A DNA stretch of 64,000 nt, taken from NCBI RefSeq assembly GCF_025398735.1, contig NZ_CP104694.1:237501-301500 (forward strand). Reading direction: 5' to 3'. Made by a program: the position numbers and the translations under genes. Shown piece by piece: positions 6,074 to 57,723 of the stretch (position 1 is the first letter of the stretch; each line of letters opens with the position of its first letter). Below the pieces are notes generated by a model, which worked only from the letters and a program-made list of their open reading frames with translations, made no database searches and had not been told where the DNA came from. The stretch is from Tahibacter amnicola. GTDB lineage: Bacteria > Pseudomonadota > Gammaproteobacteria > Xanthomonadales > Rhodanobacteraceae.

Positions 6074-6160
6074 GCTCCATCAACCTGCAGCCGCAAAGCG
6101 CGCAGGGTAGCGGGCCCGCCCGGCGACGCCAAGCGCCGGACGGCATGCACGCAGACCGGC

Positions 6161-44162: not shown

Positions 44163-47100
44163 CTACGGCCGCGGCTGCCCCAGCTGGCGGATCATGCTGT
44201 CGACACTGCCGCGCATCTTGCGTACCTGGTCCCAGATGTCGTGGTCCAGCGTCATCTTGTGGTGCAGCGCCGAGACCAGGGGCAGCAGGGTTTCCTCGTA
44301 GGCCTTGGCGATGCGCGTCAACGATTCGGCCAGCGCCGGAGGCACTTCGACCGCGGGCGTACGATCCAGTGCCGCGCGGATGGCATCGAGCGAATGCAGG
44401 GCGCGGAGCGCTTCTCTGGCATCGGCATGGTTCTGGCCGTGTTTCTCCAGTTGCGCGGCGATGCCGGCGAGCGCCTGCGCCGTGCGCGTGGCGCCGTCGG
44501 CGTCCTTGCCGCCCTGGCTCGCCAGCAGGCGGAAGCTGTCGCAGACGGACTGCCAGCGTGCGTTTTCTTCCGCCGAAGGCCGGCCGATCAGCTGGCCGAG
44601 CTTGAGCAGGTTTTCTTCGGCCCGCGCACCGAGCGTCTGGGCTTCGCCGCGGTAGTGGTCGCGGATCAGCGCGTCGAGTTCTTCCGGCGTCATCAGCGGG
44701 CTGAGCGCCGAGGCCAGCTTGGTCATGTTGCGATAGCTGCCCTGCAGCTTGAAGGGCGGCTCGGTGCGGTAGTGATCGTCCTGCGCTGCGCTGGCCACGT
44801 AGGCGGCGTTCACGCGCATCAGCACGTCGCGCACCCAGACCATGCGGCGTACCAGGGCGATCGTCTCCACGCTGACAGAACCGGCGACGGCACCTTCGTC
44901 TTCCTGGGCGGCGCGGATCGCAGACAGGATGTCGGCACGTGGACGTTCGGCCAGCGCGGCCGTTCCGGGATTGGCGGTCAGCGCGTTCTCGATGTAGCTG
45001 TCGGCGAACAGCGCCTCGCGCCCGCTGAGCACATCACCCAGGTTGTACACGTCGGCACGGTTGGCCAGCATGTCCGGAATGCGGAACACGTCGCCGCTCT
45101 CGGTGTACGGGTTGCCGGCCATCACCAGGGCGAACCGCTTGCCGCGCAGATCAATCGTGCGCGCCTGGCCGTCCACAACGGCATCGATACGGCGCGTCGC
45201 GTCGGCCAGGCTGATGAACTTCTGCAGAAATTCGGCGGAAAGGTGCTGGATATCGTCCAGGTACAGCATCACATTAGTGGCCATGGCCAGGCCCAGGTTG
45301 AGCTTGACCAGTTCCTCCGACGCGCTGCGGTGCGGCGACTGGGCGGGATCAAGACCCGTCGCCTCGTGCCCGAGCGTGGGGCCATTGATGCGCACGAAGG
45401 TCATGCCCAGGCGATCGGCGATGTATTCCATCAGCGTCGTCTTGCCATAGCCGGGCGGTGATATCAGCAGCAGCATGCCGGACCGGTCGCTACGGCGATC
45501 GTCAGCGCTGCCGATCTGCTTGGCGAGGTTGCGCCCGATCAAGGGCAGGTAGACCTCGTCAATCAGGCGATTGCGCACGAAACCGGCGAGCGGCTTGGCC
45601 AGGAAGCGATCCAGACCCAACCGCTGTCGCTCCGCCTCCACCAGCGCGTGGCGCACCGCGGCGAAGGCGTGCCACGCCGGCTCCACGCTGTCGGCATGGG
45701 CGGCGAGGCGTTCCAGGAACTCGGGGACGTCCAGCGGCAGTGCGCCGTCCTGGATGCGATCGTGGCGCCCGCGCAACGCAGTGAGCGTCTGCACCAGCGG
45801 CAACGTACGCCGCTCGCGCGGTACTGCAGGAAACGCCAGGATGACCGCCGCCTCCAAAGCTACCGATGGGGTAGCATGTTCTTCTCCGACCGCCTCGCAC
45901 CAGCGGCAGGCCAGCCCCAGGCGGTCGGCCACGGCAAGCTGCGCATCGAGGGCGCCCAGCACGCCGCGCGGCAGTTCGCTGCGTACGCGGTCGGCGAGGT
46001 CCTGGGCGGCGGCGGAAACGTCGAAGTGCGGATGATCCTGTCCCACGCTGATGACGAGGTGCCGCGCCGCAGCCGCCAGCTGCGCCGGGCTCAGGGAAAT
46101 TCCTGCGGCCTGCGCCGTGTGCGCGATCGCGGCCAGCCACGAGGGTGGTACCGGCGGCGCCAGGCTGTTCCGTACGAACCAGGCCAGGCCCGTCGCATGG
46201 CTGCGCAACGCGGTCTGCGCCGGGGGATCAAGCAGGGCGTAGTGGCATTGCGCCACCACGCGCGCGGCGGCTGGCACCGACAACTCGCCGGCACCACTGG
46301 CGAGTTTGGCCAGTACGTGCAGGATCTGGCCCGCATCGACGTCGTGCACGCCGCGCTGGTAATCCTCCACGGGATAGCGGCGCGCGTGTTCGGCCACCAG
46401 CGCCTGCACGGTGTCGGGTTCGACCGACAGGAGTGCGTCGCGCAAGGCGGTGTCGCCATCCTGCGCCGCGCGCCACAGGCGGTAGGCCAGGTATTCACCG
46501 CGATACACCGTGGCCGTTTCGTTCGGCAGGGATTGTCCCCACACCGCGCGAAACTCGTGTACGCGGGGGTCGTCGACCGGCCGCTGGTAGTCGCTGCCCA
46601 CCAGGCGCAGTGATACCGCATCGGCAGTGTGCAGCAGCGCGATATCCAGCGGCTTGCGCTCGACCGTGAAGCGGAAATTTCCCAGCGCCAGCGTATCGCC
46701 AGTGATACCCAGCTCGGTGCGATCGCGCAGGTCGCGCAGGCTGGCCTCGCGCAGCGATTTCAGGCGGCCGCCGAGTTCGTCCGCCGCCACCGCGTGGCCC
46801 AGCGCGCGCAGCTCGTCGATCTGCCGCAGGGCGCGTTCGACCAGACTGTCGCCGGCAAATAAGGCATGCACCTCTTCGGCCTGCGACAGGCGCGCGACGC
46901 GGCGCGGCACGCCGTCCAGCACGCGTTCGACGGCCTCGCGCAAACCCTGGGCGCGCTGCTCGCGCTGGCCGGCGATCTGCTCGCGGCGCGCCGCGAAGGC
47001 ATCGAGCACGGTTTCGCGCCGGCTGGTCAGTTCCACCAGGAAGGCGGGCTGCTCGCCAAAGCGGGCTTCCAGCTGCTCGATCTGGCCCAAGAGCTGCGCC

Positions 47101-49238
47101 AGCGCGTTGTCAGTGGATTCGGGCGTGTCGCTGCGACCGAGCAGATTCTCGACCGTCTGCTCCAGCACGGTCAGCTGCGCACCGAACTCCAGCCCCTGTT
47201 CTTCCTTGAGCAGGGTTTCGCGCCGGTTACGCTGCTGCGCGCGGATGCGGTTCACCTCGGCATAGAGCGTGGAGGTGCGGCCGAGCAGGTCGGCGCGCTG
47301 CTGCGCGTCGCTCTGTTCGAAACCAGCCACCAGTTCGCTCAGTCCGTCGAGCGATTCGGCGAGGGCATCCAGTTCCTTGCCCACATCCGCCAGCGCCGTG
47401 CTGGTCGTTGCCTTCGCGACATGGTCGGCGGCGTCGGCCAATCCCTTCTGCAGCGGCGCGAACGCTGCCGAATCGGCAAAGAACTTCAGCGCGCGCGCGC
47501 CGATGCGGTCCAGCTCCTCGCGCAGGCGCGTATCGAGGGACGCGACGTCCGTGGCGGCGACGTGCTCCTTCTCGCCCAGCAGAGTCAGCTCGCCGCGCTT
47601 GCGCTTGATCGAGCGGATCGCGTCGGTGAAATCCTCGGGTTTCTGCCACAACAGGCTGCTGACGCGCGAAAGCAGTTCGCCGACGGACTTGCCAGCCGCC
47701 TCCACCGCGTGACGCGCCTCGGTTTTCGCCTGTTCCAGCTTCTCGCAGGCCACCAGGGCTTCGCGCGCGCTGCGCCCAAGCGTGGCGACGTCCGCGCCGA
47801 TTTCGCCGGCTTCTGCCTCCGTCAACCATGGGTAGGCGTCTGCGCAGCGTCCGCTCAGGCGCACGAGCTGTTCGTAGCCAGCCTGGTTTGCCGCATCCGA
47901 TGCCAGGCGCAGCACCTCACGCAGATCGGCCAGTGCACGGACGACCGTCGCGTTGCCCACGCGCCCGAGCAATCCGCTCACGCGCGGCGCGACGCTGGCG
48001 TGTTCTTCGAAGGCAAAAGGCGTCCGCCAGAGCTGCATGGTGTGAAGGCGCGTCGGTTCTTCGCCCGACTCGGGTGTCATCAGCAGCACGCGGCCGTCGA
48101 GCAGGCGCGCATAGCCGTTGCCAAGGAGCGGCTGGCCCAGTGCTCGGTCAATCACGTTGTAGGACAACAGCGCATAGCGCCCGCCCACGGGCTCGTAGAA
48201 CACGTAGAGCATGTCCTCGCCGCTGGGCGCGCGCAGCTGGCGCTTGATGCGGAAGGCGGAGAAGTCGTGGCCCAGGTCGGAGAAGCGCTTGTATTCGCCG
48301 GATTCGAGATAGCAGCCGCCGGGGAACACGATGCCATGGTCTTCGGGCAAGGCCATGCACGAGGCGCCGATCTCGTCCAGGCGCACCACGCTTTTCTGCC
48401 GTGTATTGAACACCAGGTAGCGCGTCTGGTTTTCGCGGTAGGGCTTGATCCGCAGAAGGATCAGCGCACCGACAGGCGCGTAGGCGATTTCCGCATCCGC
48501 CAGGGACTGGTTCTTGTCGTCGACCGGCTCGCTGTAGATGCCCAGGCCGCTTTCGGTGTTGTTCTCGATCTTGATAGTGAGATCGCCGCCGATGGTCTCG
48601 ACGAACACTGTGTCCAGGATATTGGCGTGGGGATGGCGCCCCATGACGAACTGTTCGCGGGTGACGGGCTGCCACTCGAAGTCGTGCGTGGGCGGCAGCA
48701 CGTGATCGCGTTCGCCGCGGTTGTCCAGGTACTGCACACGGCCTTCGCGATCGATCGAGAAGCGGAAAACGCGCAGGTCGGTGGCCTGGGTGCCGGTGCG
48801 GAAGATCATCAGCAGCCGCTCGCCGATCACGCGCAACTGGTCGAGCGTGGTGGCGCGGTAATAGGTGAAGAGCTCGCGGAAATCCGCTACGAACCGCGCG
48901 TCATCCAGGAAGGTTCCGGCAATCGGCTGCGCCTGCAGTTCGGGCCCCTCACCGCTCTCGGCGAGCCGGTACAGGCAGAACACGTCGCCGACCTGGGTTT
49001 CCTTCTTCAGGCCGATGAAGACGTTGTAGCCGAGCAGGAACACATCACCGGCGCGCACCACGTCCCGCGCCACGCCGTTGTGCTCGGTGCGCGCATTCAG
49101 TCGCGCCAGCAGCTTGGCCTCGATACGGCCAAAGGCATCCAGGCGCCGGCGATTGAGTGCCTGCACCTTTTCACCGAGCGCCTGGCCGGTGGTGGCCAGG
49201 CGCTTGCGCAGGAGTTCGAACGTGGCGGAGGCAGTCAT
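44163..49238 (-). CDS. Giant AAA ATPase of the 'DNA repair ATPase' (DUF3686) family, in a PspA-flotillin operon
   Basis: 1691 residues (MTASATFELLRKRLATTGQAL). Residues 1-400 are a beta-rich domain (VFIGLKKETQVGDVFCLYRL; FVETIGGDLTIKIENNTESGLGIYSEP), about 430-850 are long coiled coils, and near 1262-1300 there is an AAA+ core with Walker A SPPGYGKTT and Walker B NVMLYLDDIQH, followed by a sensor region (KRFALVMAGNPYTESG). Usually annotated 'DNA repair ATPase', but I know of no direct evidence for repair. Last gene of the operon, 11 bases after the flotillin gene. A role in remodelling membrane-bound PspA/flotillin assemblies fits better; that is inference. Confidence 0.85.
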   Translation of the reverse strand: MTASATFELLRKRLATTGQALGEKVQALNRRRLDAFGRIEAKLLARLNARTEHNGVARDVVRAGDVFLLGYNVFIGLKKETQVGDVFCLYRLAESGEGPELQAQPIAGTFLDDARFVADFRELFTYYRATTLDQLRVIGERLLMIFRTGTQATDLRVFRFSIDREGRVQYLDNRGERDHVLPPTHDFEWQPVTREQFVMGRHPHANILDTVFVETIGGDLTIKIENNTESGLGIYSEPVDDKNQSLADAEIAYAPVGALILLRIKPYRENQTRYLVFNTRQKSVVRLDEIGASCMALPEDHGIVFPGGCYLESGEYKRFSDLGHDFSAFRIKRQLRAPSGEDMLYVFYEPVGGRYALLSYNVIDRALGQPLLGNGYARLLDGRVLLMTPESGEEPTRLHTMQLWRTPFAFEEHASVAPRVSGLLGRVGNATVVRALADLREVLRLASDAANQAGYEQLVRLSGRCADAYPWLTEAEAGEIGADVATLGRSAREALVACEKLEQAKTEARHAVEAAGKSVGELLSRVSSLLWQKPEDFTDAIRSIKRKRGELTLLGEKEHVAATDVASLDTRLREELDRIGARALKFFADSAAFAPLQKGLADAADHVAKATTSTALADVGKELDALAESLDGLSELVAGFEQSDAQQRADLLGRTSTLYAEVNRIRAQQRNRRETLLKEEQGLEFGAQLTVLEQTVENLLGRSDTPESTDNALAQLLGQIEQLEARFGEQPAFLVELTSRRETVLDAFAARREQIAGQREQRAQGLREAVERVLDGVPRRVARLSQAEEVHALFAGDSLVERALRQIDELRALGHAVAADELGGRLKSLREASLRDLRDRTELGITGDTLALGNFRFTVERKPLDIALLHTADAVSLRLVGSDYQRPVDDPRVHEFRAVWGQSLPNETATVYRGEYLAYRLWRAAQDGDTALRDALLSVEPDTVQALVAEHARRYPVEDYQRGVHDVDAGQILHVLAKLASGAGELSVPAAARVVAQCHYALLDPPAQTALRSHATGLAWFVRNSLAPPVPPSWLAAIAHTAQAAGISLSPAQLAAAARHLVISVGQDHPHFDVSAAAQDLADRVRSELPRGVLGALDAQLAVADRLGLACRWCEAVGEEHATPSVALEAAVILAFPAVPRERRTLPLVQTLTALRGRHDRIQDGALPLDVPEFLERLAAHADSVEPAWHAFAAVRHALVEAERQRLGLDRFLAKPLAGFVRNRLIDEVYLPLIGRNLAKQIGSADDRRSDRSGMLLLISPPGYGKTTLMEYIADRLGMTFVRINGPTLGHEATGLDPAQSPHRSASEELVKLNLGLAMATNVMLYLDDIQHLSAEFLQKFISLADATRRIDAVVDGQARTIDLRGKRFALVMAGNPYTESGDVFRIPDMLANRADVYNLGDVLSGREALFADSYIENALTANPGTAALAERPRADILSAIRAAQEDEGAVAGSVSVETIALVRRMVWVRDVLMRVNAAYVASAAQDDHYRTEPPFKLQGSYRNMTKLASALSPLMTPEELDALIRDHYRGEAQTLGARAEENLLKLGQLIGRPSAEENARWQSVCDSFRLLASQGGKDADGATRTAQALAGIAAQLEKHGQNHADAREALRALHSLDAIRAALDRTPAVEVPPALAESLTRIAKAYEETLLPLVSALHHKMTLDHDIWDQVRKMRGSVDSMIRQLGQPRP

Positions 49239-49249
49239 GCGCGCGCCGC

Positions 49250-51364
49250 TCAGTCTTTGTTGCCGCCGGTTCCCGGCAGCAGGCCGCCATCGGACGCCTT
49301 GGCCCCGAGCCGCTGCGCCAGGTTCGCCACCGACAGGTCACGCAACGCATCCGCACCGCCGATCGCGGCGATGAGTTCGCGCGCGTCGGCGATCAGGTCG
49401 CGTTTGCCGGCCTTGTGCTCGGCCAGGGCCTGGCTGAGCAGCGCGCTTTTGTCGACCGTGCCGTCGATGGCCTTGCCCAGGCTCAGCGAGCGCATGAAGC
49501 GTTCGAAGTAGGCACCGTCGCCGCCGACGATCTCGATGTTGGCCACCGACAGCGCCTTGGCCAGCACCTCGGCCTGGTCGCGGGCGATGGCTTGATTGGC
49601 ATCGATGCCTTTCATCGTCACCGCGTGGGCGTAGTCGAGCTGCATGCGCTGTTCTTCATGGGCGCGCGTTTCTTCGCTCATCGCCTTCATGGCTTCGAAC
49701 TTGTCCTTCAGGCCGCCAGCCTCCGCCGCGAAACGGACAGCGATGGCGTGCGCCTCGGCTTCGCCGTGTTTCTGCTTGCCGGACGCTTCGGCTTCCAGTT
49801 TCAGACGCAGTGCCTCGGCCTCGGCGACGCCGTGCTTCTGCTTGCCCGTCGCCTCGGCTTCCAGCTTCAGGCGCAACGCCTCGGCCTCGGCCGAGCCGTG
49901 CTTGGCGATAGCCTCGGCGTCGGCGATTTTCAGGCGCGCAGCGACCAGGCCTTCCTTTTCCGTCGCATCGGCCTGCGCGATGGCCACCTTCGCGGCGGCC
50001 AGGCCACTGGCCGCCTCGACGGCTTCGATACCTTCCGCCTCGCGCTTCTTGCCCTCGGCCGCCTTGCCGGCGATGGCGAGCTTGGCCTCGGCCATGGTGA
50101 GTTCTTCGGCGGCCTTGTGCTTGGCGCGCTGTTCTTCGGCCATGGCCTTGCGCACCTCGGCAATGAAGCTCTCTTCCGCCGCGCCCTCGGCCAGCACAAT
50201 GGTGCTCTTCTTCGTGCGTTCGGCGTCGGACAGGGTGCGCAGGTTCTTGATCTCTTCTTCCTGCTCGGCCACCGTGCGTTCGACCACGATGCGCTCGCGG
50301 ATCACATCCGCGATCGCCTTCTTCTGCACTTCGACGGCCTTCTCTTTCTCGATCCGGTGCAAGGTGACTTCGCGCTCGCGGTCGACCTGCTCCAGCTCGC
50401 GGGCGCGCGTGACGCGCTCTTCCTCGATGGCCACCGCGCGCTGGCGGTTCTTCTCGGCGACTTCGGCCTCGCGCTTCATGTTTTCCTGCTGCACGGCGAT
50501 CTGCTGGTCCGCCAGCAGCCGGGCGATCTCCGACTTGGAGCGCTCTTCCGCCGCCACTTTCGCCGACTCGGCTTCCTCGCGGGCGCGGGTGTTGGCAATC
50601 TCGCGCTGCTGGTTGGCCTCGGCGTAGGCCTTCTGGCGTTCCAGCTCCAGCACGGCCTCGGCGGTTTCGACGTCCTTTTTCTTGATCCGCATTTCTTCGT
50701 TGCGGCGCAGTTCGTTCGTGTGGACGTTCTGCTCGGCGGTCAGCTCGGTGATCTTGCGGATGCCCTGGGCGTCGAGGATGTTGTGCGGATCGAGCTTTTC
50801 CAGCGGCGTTTGCTCGAGATAGTCGATCGCGGCGTCTTCGAGTACGTACCCGGAAAGCTCATCGCCGATCTGGCGGACGATCTGGTCGCGGAAACGGTCA
50901 CGGGCTTCGTACAGGTCGACGAAATCCATCGCCTTGCCCACGGTCTTGAGTGCTTCGGAAAACTTGGCGCTGAAGAGGTCTTCCAGCGTCTGTTGGCTGC
51001 TCGCCCGTGCACAGCCAATGCCCTGGGCGACGCGCAGTACGTCGTCGCGCGTCTTGTTCACGCGCACGAAGAACTTCACCTTGATGTCGGCGCGCATGTT
51101 GTCCTTGCAGATGAGGCCTTCCTTGCCCATGCGCTCGATTTCGATGGTCTTGAGCGAAATATCCATCGTCTCGCGACGATGCAGGATCGGAATGACCAGC
51201 CGGCCCGTAAAGCTGACTTCCGGCTCGGCGCGCATGGTGTTGACGATCATGGCATGGCCCTGGTCCACCTTCTGGTAGAACTTGGCGACCAGCGCCATGA
51301 AACCCAGCAGGAAAACGACCAGTACGCCAACGGCGGCAATCAGGGTGATAACGGCGGTATCCAT
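49250..51364 (-). CDS. yqiK: YqiK-type flotillin (SPFH/band 7 protein)
   Basis: 704-residue membrane scaffold. N-terminal membrane helix (ITLIAAVGVLVVFLLGFMALV), SPFH/band-7 domain to about residue 200 (GHAMIVNTMRAEPEVSFTGRLVIPILHRRETMDISLKTIEIER), then a 350-residue charged, alanine-rich coiled coil typical of flotillins, with an internal 22-residue repeat, and a C-terminal oligomerisation region (EIVGGDGAYFERFMRSLSLGKAI). YqiJ is encoded just upstream, as in E. coli yqiJK. Organises membrane microdomains. Confidence 0.92.
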   Translation of the reverse strand: MDTAVITLIAAVGVLVVFLLGFMALVAKFYQKVDQGHAMIVNTMRAEPEVSFTGRLVIPILHRRETMDISLKTIEIERMGKEGLICKDNMRADIKVKFFVRVNKTRDDVLRVAQGIGCARASSQQTLEDLFSAKFSEALKTVGKAMDFVDLYEARDRFRDQIVRQIGDELSGYVLEDAAIDYLEQTPLEKLDPHNILDAQGIRKITELTAEQNVHTNELRRNEEMRIKKKDVETAEAVLELERQKAYAEANQQREIANTRAREEAESAKVAAEERSKSEIARLLADQQIAVQQENMKREAEVAEKNRQRAVAIEEERVTRARELEQVDREREVTLHRIEKEKAVEVQKKAIADVIRERIVVERTVAEQEEEIKNLRTLSDAERTKKSTIVLAEGAAEESFIAEVRKAMAEEQRAKHKAAEELTMAEAKLAIAGKAAEGKKREAEGIEAVEAASGLAAAKVAIAQADATEKEGLVAARLKIADAEAIAKHGSAEAEALRLKLEAEATGKQKHGVAEAEALRLKLEAEASGKQKHGEAEAHAIAVRFAAEAGGLKDKFEAMKAMSEETRAHEEQRMQLDYAHAVTMKGIDANQAIARDQAEVLAKALSVANIEIVGGDGAYFERFMRSLSLGKAIDGTVDKSALLSQALAEHKAGKRDLIADARELIAAIGGADALRDLSVANLAQRLGAKASDGGLLPGTGGNKD
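49765..49896. repeat. 66-bp tandem repeat within the flotillin gene
   Basis: Two full 66-bp copies and a short third start (at 49765, 49831 and 49897), each beginning GCCGTGYTTCTGCTTGCC on the plus strand. They encode the 22-residue unit HGxAEAEALRLKLEAEAxGKQ, in frame, in the coiled coil. Recent duplication is likely, since the copies are close at DNA level. Confidence 0.8.
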
Positions 51365-51437
51365 CTTCGGGTACTCCCGGTGGGTTGGGATCAGTGACAG
51401 GGCAAACGGACTTGACGAAACGGCGGGACGGTGATGA

Positions 51438-52052
51438 TCAGGACGGCGGGTCGTAGGCTTCCACGAGATAGCGGCCGCGCTCGCGATCCAGGTCGATGAT
51501 GAGCGCCGTGCTGCCCTTGACGAGCGAATTGGGGACGCCGGCGTACACTTTGATGTTCAGTCGCGCGCCGCCCGTATCCACCTCGGCCTGGCCGAAATTC
51601 TCTTCGACGCTGAGCGTGAGAATGCGACAGCTGCGGCCGATGACCGATTCGTGGCTCGCCCCCGGGTGGACGACGAACAGGGGCTTGAGCGGCCGCAGGC
51701 AGATCGCGGCCAGGGGCACGGCGGCCAGGAGCGCGACCACCAGCACGCCGCCGCCCACCAGCCACGGCGACGCGGCATACCACACCGGCGCCAGCGACAG
51801 GGCGAGCATGGTCAGCAGCCACCAGAAGAACACGACGCCACTGATGACGATGGAGAACGGCAGGCGGTCCAGTCCCAGGGCCAGCAGCGACTCCGGCACC
51901 GCATCGCCGTCTTCGCCGCCGACCCAGTCGGGGCCAACCGCATCGAAATCGAACATGCCAGCGATGGCGAGCAGCCAGAACACGATCAGCACGCCGAGCA
52001 GAATCGACGGAATGATCGCGGGAAAGTGCGTGAGGAGATAAAAGAAGTTCAT
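51438..52052 (-). CDS. yqiJ: YqiJ-like membrane protein with NfeD-type OB fold
   Basis: 204 residues: MNFFYLLTHFPAIIPSILLG opens the first helix, further helices are at LDRLPFSIVISGVVFFWWLLTMLALSLAPVWY and LVGGGVLVVALLAAVPLAAI, and the C-terminal 70 residues form the cytoplasmic OB-fold (IGRSCRILTLSVEENFGQAEVDTGGARLNIKVYA). YqiJ/NfeD proteins partner flotillins. The ATG overlaps the preceding gene's stop by 4 bases. Confidence 0.88.
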   Translation of the reverse strand: MNFFYLLTHFPAIIPSILLGVLIVFWLLAIAGMFDFDAVGPDWVGGEDGDAVPESLLALGLDRLPFSIVISGVVFFWWLLTMLALSLAPVWYAASPWLVGGGVLVVALLAAVPLAAICLRPLKPLFVVHPGASHESVIGRSCRILTLSVEENFGQAEVDTGGARLNIKVYAGVPNSLVKGSTALIIDLDRERGRYLVEAYDPPS

Positions 52053-52408
52053 GGTGTCTTCGCCCTCTTCCTGGTGCGGCTCCTGCTCTGCGACTCGGCG
52101 AATGCAAACAGTTCCTGTGCCACGCGCTCCTTGATCGCCAGGTGGTCGCTGGCGTCAAGGCCATAGCGGCTGCCCAGGAGCTGGTAATCCTCACCGCTCA
52201 GGCTCACCGTCAGGCGCGGGCGCTTGACCTGGCGCACCACTGGCAGCCCCAGTACGACGCGAACCTGGTCGGAGTTGGACAGGTTGGATTCGAAGGCGGC
52301 CGTTCGGATCGCCTGCATGACCGTTTCGGAAACGTCGAAGGCCACCTGAACCGCACGCAGGGCCGGTTCCGAGGAGCGCCAGCGACTGGGCAGGCGCTCA
52401 GTCTTCAT
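52049..52408 (-). CDS. Unknown 119-residue protein of the PspA-flotillin operon
   Basis: MKTERLPSRWRSSEPALRAV starts the protein; the middle part (VSETVMQAIRTAAFESNLSNSDQVRVVLGLPVVRQVKRPRLTVSLSGEDYQLLGSRYGL) looks like a strand-helix-helix DNA-binding-type arrangement (NLSNSDQVRVVLGL), and the C-terminus is basic (SRSRTRKRAK). No family named. It overlaps the PspA-like gene by 11 bases and yqiJ by 4, so it is firmly part of the operon; it could be its regulator or an adaptor. Confidence 0.7.
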   Translation of the reverse strand: MKTERLPSRWRSSEPALRAVQVAFDVSETVMQAIRTAAFESNLSNSDQVRVVLGLPVVRQVKRPRLTVSLSGEDYQLLGSRYGLDASDHLAIKERVAQELFAFAESQSRSRTRKRAKTP

Positions 52409-52952
52409 CGGCGGGCTTCCGGGGGTGCCGGGCGGGCAGTTGTTCCAGACGCTCCATCACGGCCTTGGGGCGGGCGCGTTCGAAACCGGCATCACGCCGG
52501 GTGCGCGCCACCGGCCGTGGGCGATCGCCCACGGCCTGGGTGGTCCGGCTGGCCGCGGTGGCGGTGCGGGCCATGGAAAGATCGCGCTCCAGCGTGCGCA
52601 TCTGCAGGGCGATGCGTGCCTGCACGGCGTCCAGCTGCGTGATGTGGGCATCAAAGCTGCCCACCAGCTCGCTTTCCAGCGCGACGGCGCGCGCCAGCTC
52701 CACCAGCCGATCGCGGTAACGCGGATGCTGCCACTCGCTGCGGGTGAGCTCTTCCAGCTCGCCCTGCGCGCGCAGCATGCGCCGGCGCGCCGCTTCGGCG
52801 CGGGCGCGGGCCGACTGGAGGTCCTTCTGGGTGCGTTGCAGCAGCGCCTGCGCCTGGCGCACGGAGCGCGGTTCGGCCTCGGCGGCAGCCGATTCCGGCG
52901 AGCCGTCCAGTTCGTTACGCAGGGCACCGAGGATGTCGTTCCACCAAGCCAT
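52398..52952 (-). CDS. Short PspA/IM30-like coiled-coil protein
   Basis: 184 residues. MAWWNDILGALRNELDGSPE could form the N-terminal membrane-binding amphipathic helix; residues 28-130 are continuous helix with heptads (RQAQALLQRTQKDLQSARARAEAARRRMLRAQGELEEL). The tail is Pro/Arg-rich and probably disordered. Shorter than canonical PspA (about 220) and most like YjfJ, which also follows a DUF2170 gene. Expected to bind stressed membranes. Confidence 0.7.
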   Translation of the reverse strand: MAWWNDILGALRNELDGSPESAAAEAEPRSVRQAQALLQRTQKDLQSARARAEAARRRMLRAQGELEELTRSEWQHPRYRDRLVELARAVALESELVGSFDAHITQLDAVQARIALQMRTLERDLSMARTATAASRTTQAVGDRPRPVARTRRDAGFERARPKAVMERLEQLPARHPRKPADED

Positions 52953-52961
52953 GGCGCGTTC

Positions 52962-53387
52962 CTAGACCAGGAAATCTGACAATGTGGAAATAGCGTCACG
53001 CCCGTTGTCGCTCAGTGTCGCCAACTCCAGCGCCACGTCGCGCGGCGAGGATTCGGGGCTGAGCGCGCCGAACAGCACGAAATGCCCACCGATCCGGCCG
53101 AACGCCGACAGGGGCACGCTCGGATTGAGATCGAGCAGGGTTTCCATCAGCTTGCTGCGCAGGCGCGGACGCACATCGCTGTCGCGCCACAGATAGCTGA
53201 TGCACAGCAGCTGGCTGCCGGTATCGGTCACGTAGATCGGCAACCGCTCGCTGCGGGGAAATCCGACCTCGATGACCGGTACTTCGCCGGGAACGCTGGC
53301 GATTTCGATCGCCTCGGTCATCAACTGGCGCTTGAGCAGCGGAAGCGTCGCCTTGATCAAGGCAGGCAGATTGTGGCGCTTGGGCAT
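52962..53387 (-). CDS. yjfI: DUF2170 (YjfI-like) protein
   Basis: 141 residues (MPKRHNLPALIKATLPLLKR; QLLCISYLWRDSDVRPRLRSKLMETLLDLNPSVPLSAFGRIGGHFVLFGALS). This alpha/beta protein family accompanies PspA-like YjfJ in the E. coli yjfI operon. First gene of the six-gene operon; AGGGG lies upstream of its ATG and the tandem operator at 53439-53470 is 51 bases before it. Possibly a chaperone-like partner of PspA, not shown. Confidence 0.82.
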   Translation of the reverse strand: MPKRHNLPALIKATLPLLKRQLMTEAIEIASVPGEVPVIEVGFPRSERLPIYVTDTGSQLLCISYLWRDSDVRPRLRSKLMETLLDLNPSVPLSAFGRIGGHFVLFGALSPESSPRDVALELATLSDNGRDAISTLSDFLV

Positions 53388-53498: not shown

Positions 53499-55268
53499 CT
53501 AGGCGATTGCACCCATCGACAGGTGGGGCTCAAACGAGGCGACGCGATTCCTGCCAGACCGCTTGGCGTGATAGAGCGCGACATCGGCGCTGGCGACGAG
53601 GCGTTGCAGGTCATAGCCGGCCGACGCGGTCTGCGCCACGCCGAAACTGGCCGAGACGGGCTGGCCATGGCTGTTCCCGGACGTGGTGACCGTGGCGATT
53701 CGCGCGCGCAGCTCATCGGCCTTGCGCATCGCGGCGTCCTGCGAGGCGCGCGGCAGCACGATGGCAAACTCCTCGCCGCCCAGGCGGCCCAGTACCTCGT
53801 CTTCGGCCAGGCAGGACTTGCACACCTTGGTGACCTGCTTGAGCACGAAGTCGCCGGCCGCGTGGCCGTGCGCGTCGTTGATCTGCTTGAAGTGATCCAG
53901 GTCGAACAGCACCATGCTGACCGGCTCGCCGGCGCGCCGGCATTCCTCGAGCGTGCGTTCGGCCACGAACATGAAGTGGGGGCGGTTGGAGACGCCGGTC
54001 AGGCCGTCGCGCTGCGCCAGGCGCATGAAGTGCAGCTGCGCGCGCTTGGTGCGGTAGGTCCACAGCAGCAGGAACAGCAGTACCGTGCCTAGCAGGACGA
54101 TATACAGGCGCCCGTTCTCCACGGCCTTGTCGGCCAGCTGCTGCTGCAGCTGCAGAACCTGGTTCTGCTTGTTGAGCGCCTCGATGTGGAACCGGGCGGC
54201 CGCCACTTCCTGGCGGATCCGCTGGAATGCCAGCTGGCGCGCGCTGATGTCGTCGAGGTAGCCCTTGTCGGCCGCGGCGAACTTTTCATGGAAAGCCAGC
54301 GCCGATTTGTAGTCGCCCTGCGCACGGGCGATTTCGTACAGCACCTGGTAGGCCGTCACCAGGGGTTCGGTAATCTGGTTGGGAACCGCGTCGGCCACGG
54401 CGCGCTCGGCATGCTCGCGCGCCAGCGTCACATTGCCGACCTGCTTGTAGGCGCGCGCCAGCAACGCGTCGCTTTCGGAAACGATGCGGGCGTAACCGGT
54501 GCGACGCAGCGCGTCGTAGTGCCGGGTGAGCAGGTCGATCGCATCCTGGGCACGATCCTGCCGGGTCAACAGTTGCGCCACGTAGCCGCGGATCACGCTC
54601 GCGTGCAACGGTTCGCTCAGTTTCTCGCAGGCTTCGATGCCGGCCTGGAAGTCTTTGTCGGGGTTGGTCAGCTGGCCCGACTTGTACATCGCTTCCAGCC
54701 GCAGTTGCCCACCTTTGCAGGCGCCACGGCCCGCCCAGTCCTCGCTGAGCAGTTTTTCCGCATATTCCAGGCCCAGTTCGTACTGGCCGACCTGGTTGTA
54801 GAGGATCGCGGCGACGACGAATCCCTGTTCGCGCGCATCACGGTCGTGCACCTCGGGCAAGAGGTCGAGGATCTTGCTCAGCTGGCCGTAGGCTTCCTCG
54901 TAGCGCCGCGCGATGGCCAGCATGTTGACCACGGTGGCGCCGGCGCGGAAACGCAGTGTGGCGTCGGTGGAGCTGTCGATGATGCCGTTCAGGACCGGGA
55001 TCGCCCCGGCATAGTCGCCGTCGTAGGCGATCTTCCAGCCCTGCAGGTAGCGCAGGTACATCGCTTCGGCCGGCGGCAGCGCGTCGCGCTGGCTCTCCAG
55101 CTTGGCCATGATCTGGTTGAATTCGGCGTGGTTGGACGTCTTGATGGAATCGGCTTGCTTGAGCAGCAGCATGGCCGCGTCGGGTTCGATCGCGGCCGTG
55201 CTGTGCAAGGCGAGGATGAGCGCCAGCCCGACGCGTCGGAACAACCGGGCGATGGCGCCGCGCATCAT
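53499..55268 (-). CDS. TPR-GGDEF diguanylate cyclase, adjacent to the borosin precursor gene
   Basis: 589-residue c-di-GMP synthase. Signal or anchor sequence (VGLALILALHSTAA), TPR-type helical region to about residue 350 that would lie in the periplasm, a coiled coil, one membrane helix (LYIVLLGTVLLFLLLWTY) and a C-terminal GGDEF domain with active-site GGEEF and LFDLDHFKQINDAHGHAAGD. The inhibitory RxxD site is not visible (AEDE at that place), so it may lack product inhibition. It starts 4 bases after the stop of the putative precursor peptide gene, so both are surely on one transcript. Confidence 0.92.
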   Translation of the reverse strand: MMRGAIARLFRRVGLALILALHSTAAIEPDAAMLLLKQADSIKTSNHAEFNQIMAKLESQRDALPPAEAMYLRYLQGWKIAYDGDYAGAIPVLNGIIDSSTDATLRFRAGATVVNMLAIARRYEEAYGQLSKILDLLPEVHDRDAREQGFVVAAILYNQVGQYELGLEYAEKLLSEDWAGRGACKGGQLRLEAMYKSGQLTNPDKDFQAGIEACEKLSEPLHASVIRGYVAQLLTRQDRAQDAIDLLTRHYDALRRTGYARIVSESDALLARAYKQVGNVTLAREHAERAVADAVPNQITEPLVTAYQVLYEIARAQGDYKSALAFHEKFAAADKGYLDDISARQLAFQRIRQEVAAARFHIEALNKQNQVLQLQQQLADKAVENGRLYIVLLGTVLLFLLLWTYRTKRAQLHFMRLAQRDGLTGVSNRPHFMFVAERTLEECRRAGEPVSMVLFDLDHFKQINDAHGHAAGDFVLKQVTKVCKSCLAEDEVLGRLGGEEFAIVLPRASQDAAMRKADELRARIATVTTSGNSHGQPVSASFGVAQTASAGYDLQRLVASADVALYHAKRSGRNRVASFEPHLSMGAIA

Positions 55269-55272
55269 TGCC

Positions 55273-55548
55273 TCACGCGACCGCGCGGATGTGGCAGGCC
55301 GCGACGATGCGGCTCTTGTCGTCCTGCGGCGCGTCCTGCTCGTCGTTGTCCGGCGGCGCCAGAACGCAGGAACGTACTGGCGTCAGGCCCAGAGCCCGGC
55401 CGATCGCCGTGCGGTCGCCCGCCAGCAGGGCGGCCTTGATCGACGCATCGATCGTGCTGTCACCCAGCATGGCTTCCAAGCCTTCGCGGCCGCCGTCGCG
55501 CGCCGCCGTTGCACCGATACGCTCAAGAAACGCAATTGCCTCAAGCAT
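55273..55548 (-). CDS. Putative split-borosin precursor peptide
   Basis: 91 residues: MLEAIAFLERIGATAARDGG..., an AGGGGTG site before the ATG. Residues 1-55 form a small helical domain (FLERIGATA; LEAMLGDSTIDASIKAALLAGDRTAIGRALG) of the LigA/SonA-like type that serves as recognition domain in bacterial borosin precursors. Residues 56-91 are an extended tail with two Cys and two blocks rich in Val, Ile and Ala (PVRSCVLAPP and SRIVAACHIRAVA) separated by an acidic DNDEQDAPQDD; either could be the N-methylated core. The methylase of the borosin family lies upstream in the same direction. Similarity to SonA is from memory and should be treated as inference. Confidence 0.6.
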   Translation of the reverse strand: MLEAIAFLERIGATAARDGGREGLEAMLGDSTIDASIKAALLAGDRTAIGRALGLTPVRSCVLAPPDNDEQDAPQDDKSRIVAACHIRAVA

Positions 55549-55821
55549 GGATTCACCCCTTTCCGTTGTGCCGTGATGGCTGGTGTCGATGAGGTTGTCA
55601 GACCGCCTGCGGGTCACCCTCGCCCGTGCCGACGGCGTGCAGGGCAGCGTCGCTGCCTGCATTCCCGTCGGAGCCGGCGCCCCGGTGGGCGGCTCGCAGA
55701 TACTGCACGCAATCTGCCCAATCGGAAAGCGGAAAATCGGGATTCCTGGCATCGTGTGCCGCTACGCATTTTGCGTGTCCGGCCATTTTGGCACTGGCTC
55801 AAATCACGCCGTGGATACGCA
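55549..55821. other. Gap between acetyltransferase and precursor genes, with a weak small ORF
   Basis: 273 bases inside the borosin cluster. On the reverse strand a 62-codon ORF (55598-55786, MAGHAKCVAAHDARNPDFPL) has plausible composition but no ribosome-binding site, so I do not call it a gene. The region could hold a separate promoter for the precursor, which would need to be made in excess over the enzyme. Confidence 0.4.
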
Positions 55822-56337
55822 TCAACCCGGTGCGCGCCGCATCCGCCAGGTGCGCCATGGCGGTGGCGCCGGATCCGCCGTTTCCGGCAGCGCCGAAAAT
55901 CCGACGCTGACTACCAGCTGCTCGGCTCGCTCGTGCGCGCGGCGGTACTGCACGTAGACCTCATCCAGGCCAAAGGAGTCAAAGGCGATTTCGGTGAGTT
56001 TTCGCAGAATTTCCTTGCCGTAGCCGCACGACTGGCGTTCCGCCGGCAACAGGATTCCCGCCTCCGCGCAACCCCGGGTACGGTCGATGGACTGCAGTCC
56101 TGCCAGACCGAACGCGTTCTGCCCCGCCGCTTCGGCCACACTGAAAAAGGCGTGGCGGCAATCGGCGCCCGGTAACGACGGAAGTGCCGCGGCAAAAGCC
56201 CTTTCGACGCCGGCGGATGAGAGCGGCCGCGCCACGTGCTCCATGACCCCGGCGTCGCCGTAAAGATATTCGAAGAGGGCACGGTCGCCTTCCTGGAGCG
56301 GCCGAAGTACCAGGCGCGCCGTCGTGTAGATACGCAT
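55822..56337 (-). CDS. GNAT acetyltransferase (RimJ/RimL type) in the borosin cluster
   Basis: 171 residues (MRIYTTARLVLRPLQEGDRA), the usual RimJ/RimL start, with the acetyl-CoA site approximated by LLPAERQSCGYGKEILRKLTEIAFDSFGLDEVYV and the C-terminal ERAEQLVVSVGF. It begins 2 bases after the methylase stop, so the two are coupled. It may acetylate the N-terminus or a side chain of the matured peptide, or act as self-protection; both are inference. Confidence 0.85.
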   Translation of the reverse strand: MRIYTTARLVLRPLQEGDRALFEYLYGDAGVMEHVARPLSSAGVERAFAAALPSLPGADCRHAFFSVAEAAGQNAFGLAGLQSIDRTRGCAEAGILLPAERQSCGYGKEILRKLTEIAFDSFGLDEVYVQYRRAHERAEQLVVSVGFSALPETADPAPPPWRTWRMRRAPG

Positions 56338-56339
56338 GA

Positions 56340-57137
56340 TCAGTCGCCGGGAACCAGGGTCATGTCCAGCGCCGCCAGCTGCGCGCGTATCGCGCGGCGT
56401 GGCTCGAGCGGGCGCACCGGCGCGATGACGACCGTATCTTCCGCGTCGATCGGCGCCGCCGGCAGTTCGCACAGACGCACGGAATCCATACGCGGGGCCA
56501 CCACGGGCAGTGTCGGTGCACGGTAGATCACGACGGGATGGTCGGCCGGATAGTGTTCCAGCAGCAGTTCCACCAGGAGCTGCCGATAGGCCGGCCCGGT
56601 CGAGGTTCGCGTCAGTGAGCGATCGCCGGCCAGTCCCACCTGCCACAGGACCAGGTAGGCCGAGCTGTCGATGGTGCGCCGGTACAGCATGAACTGGCTG
56701 GCTTCGTAGTGCTGGCAGCCGACACGTCCCGGATCGATGCCCAGGTCGGCATAAAGGCAATCTTCCGCGGAAACGCCCGGCACCATGAGCGCCTCGTGCC
56801 CTTCCGAACGGGCCAGTGCGATGGCCCGGTGCGGTGCCCAGGCGAACACGCCCGGGTGCCCGTAGAAGGCGCCGCAGACCGATTGTCCGGCGCGAACCGG
56901 CGCAAGCATCGCCTCGACCATCTCCCGGTAGGTCAGCCGGCGTGACTTGCCCGCTTCATAGAACGGCTGGAGGCTGCGGACGTCCGGATGCAGCGTGCGC
57001 AGCCAGGCTTCGACGACGCTGTCGGATACACCGGCGAAGACGACGTCGGCCTGGGTGATATGACTTTTCGCCAGCGGCCCGATATGCGAGCCAAGGGTCA
57101 TGCCGATGCCGACGCAGACGAGCTTTCCCTGGGGCAT
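56340..57137 (-). CDS. Borosin-type peptide backbone alpha-N-methyltransferase (SonM/OphMA family)
   Basis: 265 residues from the ATG at 57135-57137 (GGAAG upstream), a tetrapyrrole-methylase-fold SAM enzyme: LVCVGIGMTLGSHIGPL at the N-terminus, then the active-site stretch QPFYEAGKSRRLTYREM. In OphMA, Tyr66, Arg72 and Tyr76 are catalytic; here the same spacing gives Tyr60, Arg66 and Tyr70, while the residue matching Tyr63 is Gln. The blocks GAFYGHPGVFAWAPHRAIA (about 89-107) and MVPGVSAEDCLYADLGIDP (about 118-136) are almost the borosin signature and unlike CobA or siroheme enzymes. It has no C-terminal clasp or core of its own, so it must act on a separate precursor. Confidence 0.88.
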   Translation of the reverse strand: MPQGKLVCVGIGMTLGSHIGPLAKSHITQADVVFAGVSDSVVEAWLRTLHPDVRSLQPFYEAGKSRRLTYREMVEAMLAPVRAGQSVCGAFYGHPGVFAWAPHRAIALARSEGHEALMVPGVSAEDCLYADLGIDPGRVGCQHYEASQFMLYRRTIDSSAYLVLWQVGLAGDRSLTRTSTGPAYRQLLVELLLEHYPADHPVVIYRAPTLPVVAPRMDSVRLCELPAAPIDAEDTVVIAPVRPLEPRRAIRAQLAALDMTLVPGD

Positions 57138-57315: not shown

Positions 57316-57723
57316 TCAGACCGCGGCGTCCTTGAGCTTCTTGAGCGCACGCGCCTTGACGCGGACGGTCGCCGGCTTGGCCGGGAACCAGCGCTCTTCG
57401 CCGGTGAACGGGTCTTTCGCGAAACGCTTCTTCTTGGCCGGAACAGCCTGGGCCGTCAGCTTGACGATGCCCGGCAGGGTGAACTGGCCGACACCCTTCT
57501 TGTGGATGGCGCCGAGGATGGTGCCCTCCAGCGCTGCAAGAACCGCCTTGACCGATTTCGGCTCAACGCCGGTCTGCTCGGCAATGTAGCGGCTCAGTTC
57601 GGACTTGGAGAAGGCTTCCTTGATCGGCTTGATTCCGCCGGCGGCGGCAGACGCCTTGGCGGCTTTCGCAGGAGCCGCGGAGCGGCGGGAAGCGGCGGCA
57701 GTGGTCGCAGATTTCTTAGGCAT
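57316..57723 (-). CDS. HU-family DNA-binding protein with Ala/Lys-rich N-terminal tail
   Basis: 135 residues, against about 90 for HU: an extra N-terminal tail of about 30 residues (SRRSAAPAKAAKASAAAGG), rich in Ala and Lys like histone tails, precedes the HU fold (FSKSELSRYIAEQTGVEPKSVKAVLAALEG; GQFTLPGIVKLTAQAVPAKK). The DNA-binding arm is present in a shifted form (DPFTGEERWFPAKPATVRVKARALKKLKD). Probably a nucleoid protein. The C-terminal arm resembles the DUF4496/HimA-like group found in Xanthomonadales. Confidence 0.88.
   Translation of the reverse strand: MPKKSATTAAASRRSAAPAKAAKASAAAGGIKPIKEAFSKSELSRYIAEQTGVEPKSVKAVLAALEGTILGAIHKKGVGQFTLPGIVKLTAQAVPAKKKRFAKDPFTGEERWFPAKPATVRVKARALKKLKDAAV

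Follow-up and report, generated by a model that had tools for sequence, protein, structure and literature searches.

Described borosins and TPR receptors

Borosins are peptides with methylated backbone amides, and their maturation enzymes occur in fused and split forms. In the type IV system of Shewanella oneidensis, SonM-SonA, a stand-alone alpha-N-methyltransferase of 263 residues is accompanied by a separate precursor that has an N-terminal borosin-binding domain and a C-terminal core (PMC8429565), and in the fungal protein OphMA the methylase carries the core and the clasp as fused parts. Bioactive metabolites are known among the fungal borosins, such as the nematocidal omphalotin A (PMC11285071). 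One bacterial product has reportedly been described. The introduction of PMC11395268 credits borosin types V to X to earlier work, and the legend of its Figure 1 defines a GGDEF domain in the scheme of borosin types. The present report concerns a 64,000-nucleotide stretch of the chromosome of Tahibacter amnicola (the window, taken from a single-contig genome of 6.46 Mb that is 99.5% complete), in which a borosin methylase, a GNAT acetyltransferase, a borosin precursor and a TPR-GGDEF diguanylate cyclase follow one another. These genes are proposed to form a split borosin peptide-signalling cassette, in which an N-methylated peptide would be the ligand of the co-encoded sensor and set the level of cyclic di-GMP (c-di-GMP), a reading that is given a probability of about 0.55.

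The Rap, NprR and AimR receptors of the RRNPP family are encoded next to a peptide precursor, are cytoplasmic, and have a DNA-binding or phosphatase-type output. Among TPR proteins linked to cyclases, RcbB of Vibrio vulnificus has a TPR region that represses the cyclase until its partner, another TPR protein, relieves the repression, and two cyclases of V. parahaemolyticus with predicted periplasmic TPR domains are cited in the same article (PMC12282931). These Vibrio proteins resemble the sensor of the window in carrying the TPR region ahead of GGDEF, but the partner of RcbB is a TPR protein, and a word search of PMC12282931 does not return “methyltransferase.”

In a searchable library of Creative Commons-licensed papers, borosins and diguanylate cyclases are not mentioned together, and the overlap of borosin with GGDEF consists of PMC11395268, from the text of which the words “signal” and “c-di-GMP” are absent. 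The GGDEF type defined there, which may be the fused form found here in five genomes, shares the domain with the window, but the cyclase of the window has a gene of its own and the legend mentions no TPR sensor. The preliminary description of this DNA, which regarded a cluster with this gene content as not known, therefore holds in part. The borosin-GGDEF association is not claimed to be absent from print, and the signalling role is a proposal.

The methylase and its precursor

The four genes lie on the minus strand, at the positions given in the preliminary description, in the order methylase, GNAT, a 273 bp gap, precursor and TPR-GGDEF. The methylase (56340–57137, 265 residues) matches SonM (7ltc_A) at 1.1e-69 and 238 bits in phmmer, the best fungal OphMA-type enzyme at 7e-49 and 167 bits, and precorrin-4 methylase at E 0.07 and 16 bits; the margin over any precorrin enzyme is about 150 bits for the OphMA type and more than 220 bits for SonM. 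Its residues Tyr60, Arg66 and Tyr70, which belong to the borosin motifs quoted earlier for this protein, align with Y58, R67 and Y71 of SonM, the residues tested by the authors of PMC8429565, and do not vary among 29 aligned methylases, that of the window included. Just 10 residues extend beyond the part aligned with SonM and, as had been noticed before, there is no fused core or clasp at the C-terminus. An alternative GTG start at 57350 would make the gene overlap the end of the upstream open reading frame (ORF).

That the protein is instead a small-molecule methylase of the tetrapyrrole type, encoded beside an unrelated small protein, is hardly credible. PF00590, which the methylase matches at 8.9e-21, takes in precorrin methylases too, and the precursor by itself belongs to no database family; against this stand the margins just given, the NCBIfam tetrapyrrole models, which reach 12–28 bits where their curated cut-offs require 163–525, and the match of the precursor family to SonA described below. 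Judged by score (238 versus 16 bits), with no tree, the enzyme does not group with precorrin or uroporphyrinogen methylases, the placement that the preliminary description had named as contrary to its claim.

As a single query, the precursor (55273–55548, 91 residues, P0002) finds no Pfam or NCBIfam family, no meaningful PDB sequence and not SonA; its sole PDB match, a C4-dicarboxylate sensor at E 0.049, was taken as spurious. Searched alone against the ORFs of 30 loci with related methylases, it retrieves similar small ORFs at 1e-8 and below. A profile of this family, for which 60 of the 78 rows of alignment A4 were kept (P0002 among them) and 3 SonA-like and 15 divergent or long precursors were dropped, reaches SonA at 5.6e-6, and its top seven PDB sequences are all SonA constructs. 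With the SonA-like rows included, SonA is found at 1.9e-10, a value that is partly due to construction.

The AlphaFold2 model of the precursor has four helices within residues 2–52 and a mean predicted local distance difference test score (pLDDT) of 74, with values below 50 past residue 70, where the tail is predicted to be disordered; the small helical domain with an extended tail, as previously described, is thus also what the model contains. Foldseek returns six rows for it, none significant (E 7.4 or worse), five of which are borosin proteins. Fold re-alignment is led by SonA, with Z 5.9 and a root-mean-square deviation (rmsd) of 5.2 over 68 residues, a score that may arise by chance between helical bundles, and the clasp of OphMA aligns at Z 5.4–5.8, which is weak taken singly. 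Membership in the SonA family is settled by the profile search and not by Foldseek.

Because a SonM homolog without a fused core is combined with a separate precursor whose family profile finds SonA, the locus is, by homology, a type IV split borosin of the SonA kind, as the preliminary description had proposed. It differs from SonM-SonA in its longer precursor (91 vs. 71 residues), in its core (CVLAPP) and tail, and in the added GNAT gene. From OphMA, with its related methylase and its clasp, it differs in that these parts are separate.

The predicted core

The borosin-binding domain of the precursor spans approximately residues 1–55 and is followed by a predicted core at about C61-V62-L63-A64, by P65-P66, and by the tail. 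Aligned on the GD and LG anchors, L63 and I65 of SonA fall on V62 and A64, which are the predicted methylation sites, and P65, directly past the core patch, is at least 90% conserved in the family alignment. The core would lie just past the binding domain, with methylation most likely within C61–A64. A motif C-x(2,4)-P, defined after the cores had been seen, occurs just past the binding domain in 44 of 96 precursors, compared with 8.5 in shuffled tails; other precursors, many of them from Dyella, have by eye a Gln/Pro-rich patch in its place. A C-terminal EIR-like motif was considered as a general feature and discarded, as it matched just 8 of the 96.

Two loci have patches that are repeated, as is expected for cores: the precursor of L041 contains VCCMMLP twice, and the one beside the methylase of L163 (4902–5336), which matches the domain hidden Markov model (HMM) at just 2e-3, carries by eye four C-x-V-x-T-P-like patches; no sensor lies on the 12 kb stretch of L163. 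Acidic residues make up 6 of the 34 tail residues in the window (18%) and on average 27% across 93 tails of the family. In Tahibacter aquaticus (L016:2855–3274, also L089), the precursor tail repeats DKDEEEIRxxA-like units past the usual core patch.

The TPR-GGDEF sensor

The sensor (53499–55268, 589 residues, P0004) starts 4 bp past the precursor stop and is composed of a TPR region (approximately residues 33–397), a membrane segment (388–404) and a GGDEF domain with GGEEF at 497. GGDEF (PF00990, 5.5e-40) is the sole Pfam domain above cut-off, the TPR models being weak, and no RRNPP-type DNA-binding or phosphatase output is found. The TPR domain was modelled with a pLDDT of 94.3, and its fold re-alignment is headed by RapF with bound peptide (Z 24.2, 314 residues, rmsd 4.7), followed by a phage Rap protein (24.1) and, lower, by NprR (22.6) and AimR (19.9); Foldseek's own ranking is headed by LGN, a eukaryotic TPR protein. 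The RRNPP receptors, with a TPR superhelix of similar size, are thus among the best structural matches, but in the window the prediction places the TPR domain in the periplasm, combined with a cysteine pair, a membrane helix and GGDEF, and the sensor is not classed with them because of this output.

A signal-like hydrophobic stretch at the N-terminus of P0004 passes a 12-residue test, as do those of 91 of 96 distinct cassette cyclases. All 96 have the membrane segment, and in 95 of them the basic residues after it equal or outnumber those before. Two cysteines, C184 and C214 in the window, are conserved without exception in the 67 aligned TPR domains, and the pair, 30 residues apart, recurs in five fused proteins, in two Shewanella cyclases of SonM-type loci and in one of two histidine-kinase forms (all described below); such a pair fits a periplasmic disulfide. 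This topology and these cysteines, together with the need of the methylase and GGDEF for cytoplasmic substrates, lead to the prediction of a periplasmic TPR domain. GGEEF is intact in 96/96 cassette cyclases and the RxxD I-site is present in 76/96, the protein of the window having AEDE there; with its motif intact, this cyclase is presumably active.

Genomic association of sensor, precursor and methylase

In the preliminary description, the diguanylate cyclase was one item of the gene content; it is indeed present, but it ranks as the most constant partner of the methylase. Among the best 80 loci by similarity out of at least 569 confirmed relatives, 8 end too soon, and in the 72 that are testable TPR and GGDEF matches accompany the methylase without exception (72/72). 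The precursor is detected by HMM in 71 of these loci and by eye in the remaining one, L102. Such figures describe near relatives, for which reason samples of the order and of the class are the fairer test.

Across 61 genomes, that of the window included, the methylase is present in 33, and a sensor match below 1e-10 is found in exactly these 33 and in 0 of the 28 methylase-free genomes. The weakest sensor match in the former is 2e-15 and the best in the latter 2e-7; the thresholds for a strong sensor were chosen after the tables had been seen, and at E 0.001 weak matches appear also in three methylase-free genomes (G007, G008, G033). A same-strand sensor lies within 6 kb of 40 of the 41 methylases, and 47 of the 54 sensors have a methylase. 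In the order and class samples, scoring was confined to the 5–10 top candidates of each genome. The order is represented by 250 genomes, of which 112 have both genes, 9 the methylase only, 18 the sensor only (cut-off 1e-40) and 111 neither (Fisher 7e-40, uncorrected for kinship). In 369 genomes of the class, the methylase is matched in 11 and a sensor below 1e-15 in 4, all of them among those 11. In two of the other seven genomes the methylase match is itself weak (4.5e-28, and 1.6e-6 in G330), and no sensor is found in the annotated methylase neighbourhoods of the six besides G330 (L142–L147). Some split borosins therefore do without the sensor, which is usual in this order and not universal for borosin-type methylases.

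A precursor is found by HMM within 700 bp upstream of 97 of the 106 TPR-GGDEF ORFs in L001–L128, and two of the other nine (L102, L125) have one by eye. Seven sensors are remote from any methylase; six of these (L111–L116) have their own precursor directly upstream, and for the seventh, L117, no precursor was found. Since six of the seven remote sensors keep a precursor, it is the precursor and not the methylase that is the constant partner of the sensor: precursor and sensor form a pair, and the methylase can be shared. One methylase is accompanied by two precursor-sensor pairs in L031, L036, L043, L048, L049, L060, L073 and L080, and by five TPR-GGDEF genes in L118 (G028:C10:31000–50000). 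To the eye, an ORF at 6150–6428 of L118 resembles the final part of a further methylase gene.

Where a locus has several pairs, similarity of the TPR domains and similarity of the binding domains give the same partners in all 9 of the (non-independent) comparisons. The distance between cores correlates with that between TPR domains when GGDEF is held fixed (0.38) and does not correlate with that between GGDEF domains when TPR is held fixed (−0.03); with the binding domain also fixed, the core-TPR correlation is 0.28, a value reached by 0 of 500 permutations. These distances suggest, without going further than suggestion, that cores track the TPR rather than the GGDEF domain.

Fused and swapped forms

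In five genomes (L158–L162, two of them checked with Pfam), TPR, GGDEF and methylase form a single protein of 840–859 residues behind a SonA-like precursor. They were found among 12 regions and were picked because the methylase sat in a long open frame. In two other genomes, a locus with methylase and precursor carries the TPR sensor on a hybrid histidine kinase (L140:7474–10434 and L141:7883–11131), with TPR similarities of 4e-52 and 7e-21; L140 has a TPR-GGDEF gene besides.

Shewanella salipaludis and S. waksmanii have a second methylase in addition to a locus like that of the window. In S. salipaludis (L176), this enzyme aligns with SonM along its whole length (1.3e-144), the gene that follows it is a match to SonA (3.5e-20), and a TPR-GGDEF ORF begins 6 bp later, so that an orthologous SonM-SonA pair itself has a TPR-GGDEF gene next to it. 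The gene order in S. waksmanii (L175) is the same, the TPR-GGDEF protein included.

Proposed signalling role and alternatives

The biosynthetic step is, by homology, near certain to follow that of split borosins: the SonM-type enzyme would dock on the borosin-binding domain of the precursor and methylate backbone amides in the adjacent hydrophobic patch. The patch might then be freed from its leader, perhaps acetylated by the GNAT enzyme, and get to the periplasm or the outside. There it would bind the periplasmic TPR domain of the membrane protein encoded with it, as the gene pairing suggests, and binding would alter the activity of the cytoplasmic GGDEF domain and, through the level of c-di-GMP, attachment or motility. 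The inference that the TPR sensor has the peptide as its ligand draws on the pairing of the genes, the fusions, the exchange of output domains, the fold and the correlation. The occurrence of precursor-sensor pairs across many related bacteria suggests that the peptides may be private chemical messages. More widely, and at somewhat less than even odds, some split borosins of the gammaproteobacteria, with SonM-SonA among them, may be backbone-methylated ribosomal pheromones for periplasmic, Rap-like TPR receptors that act on c-di-GMP or, where the output is exchanged, on histidine kinases, each precursor having its own receptor and several pairs sharing one methyltransferase.

Several observations weigh against the signalling cassette. 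Automatic clustering of the ORFs of at least 100 residues in 80 loci (each cluster was named by inspecting a single example, which could let a minor group escape notice) yields no conserved transporter or protease group but a pepsin-like one. A strong sensor match is lacking in 7 of the 11 methylase-bearing genomes of the class sample, and a sensor without detected methylase occurs in 18 of the 250 genomes of the order, with no precursor beside it in either of the two loci covered (L164, L165). The N-terminal hydrophobic stretch of P0004 fails a stricter 17-residue test, and the histidine-kinase sensor of L141 has no cysteine pair. TPR folds are common, subunits of APC/C (Z 23.8) tying with the Rap rows and MalT reaching 22.6. 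The partial correlations control phylogeny incompletely, and the alignment of TPR domains exceeds that of GGDEF domains in length. Finally, the fusions also fit a sensor that controls methylation.

This last point leads to an arrangement with the reverse flow of information, in which the TPR-GGDEF protein senses another periplasmic cue and times the synthesis or methylation of a borosin that acts elsewhere. The methylase at the C-terminus of TPR-GGDEF in five genomes would then be under direct control of the sensor, but remote sensors that keep their own precursor (6/7) and cores that follow the TPR and not the GGDEF domain make this arrangement unlikely. Alternatively, the precursor might remain an intracellular protein, the methylated tail of which switches direct contact with the membrane cyclase, and no free peptide would exist. 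The tight spacing of the genes would agree with this, as would the lack of a conserved protease or exporter beside the cassette in the 80 loci and the Asp/Glu-rich tails of the family, although the tail of the window is itself less acidic (18% vs. 27%); it is nonetheless distinctly unlikely in view of the TPR domain being predicted as periplasmic and of the repeated cores of L163 (four, by eye) and L041 (two), which look like several released peptides.

It is very unlikely that the methylated peptide is an ordinary natural product, such as an antibiotic or a metal binder, with a cyclase that merely times its production with surface growth: one would not expect a timing gene to be copied along with precursors, or to be kept beside a precursor at a distance from the methylase, even though fungal borosins such as omphalotin A are bioactive (PMC11285071) and many cores contain a cysteine (C-x(2,4)-P in 44/96). 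If the TPR sensor is the receptor, as the signalling cassette implies, the role of borosin peptides becomes directly testable, a peptide-to-c-di-GMP route would be added for Gram-negative bacteria, and the bacterial pepsin homologs found in a subset of these clusters might be given a context.

Accessory genes and surroundings

The GNAT gene (55822–56337, PF13302 at 1.8e-16) has its ATG at 56337, 2 bp past the methylase stop, and ends at 55822. It had been described as coupled to the methylase. It is an optional accessory: in a search seeded by the GNAT of the window, 13 of the 72 testable near-relative loci have it between the methylase and the precursor, and 8 of the 72 have it upstream of the methylase. 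The ATG of the precursor, 273 bp past the GNAT stop, is preceded by AAGGGGTGA. Scans of the window with Rfam and for tRNAs returned no match.

Genes for a pepsin-like aspartic protease lie near the methylase in eight loci (L108:3648–5339, L094:3638–5209, L102:4598–5899 and L076:3892–5172, as well as L063, L093, L104 and L027), three of which were checked with Pfam (PF00026). The protein encoded is presumably shewasin-like. PF00026 is present in 8 of the 33 genomes with a methylase and in none of the 28 without one (p 0.006, uncorrected for kinship); five of the eight belong to the genus of the window, and within the annotated regions only G060 has the gene beside the methylase. The PF00026 gene of G019 does not match the HMM of the cluster type. 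Because PF00026 is not found in the genome of the window, the pepsin-like gene cannot be essential; it is a candidate maturation protease. In the searchable text of two articles on bacterial pepsins (PMC2761423, PMC4814920), words of the operon, GGDEF, acetyltransferase and methylase type are absent.

On the minus strand at 44163–53387 of the window is a run of genes whose products, judged by eye, resemble a large AAA ATPase, flotillin-like, NfeD-like and YbjN-like proteins and a PspA-like coiled coil.

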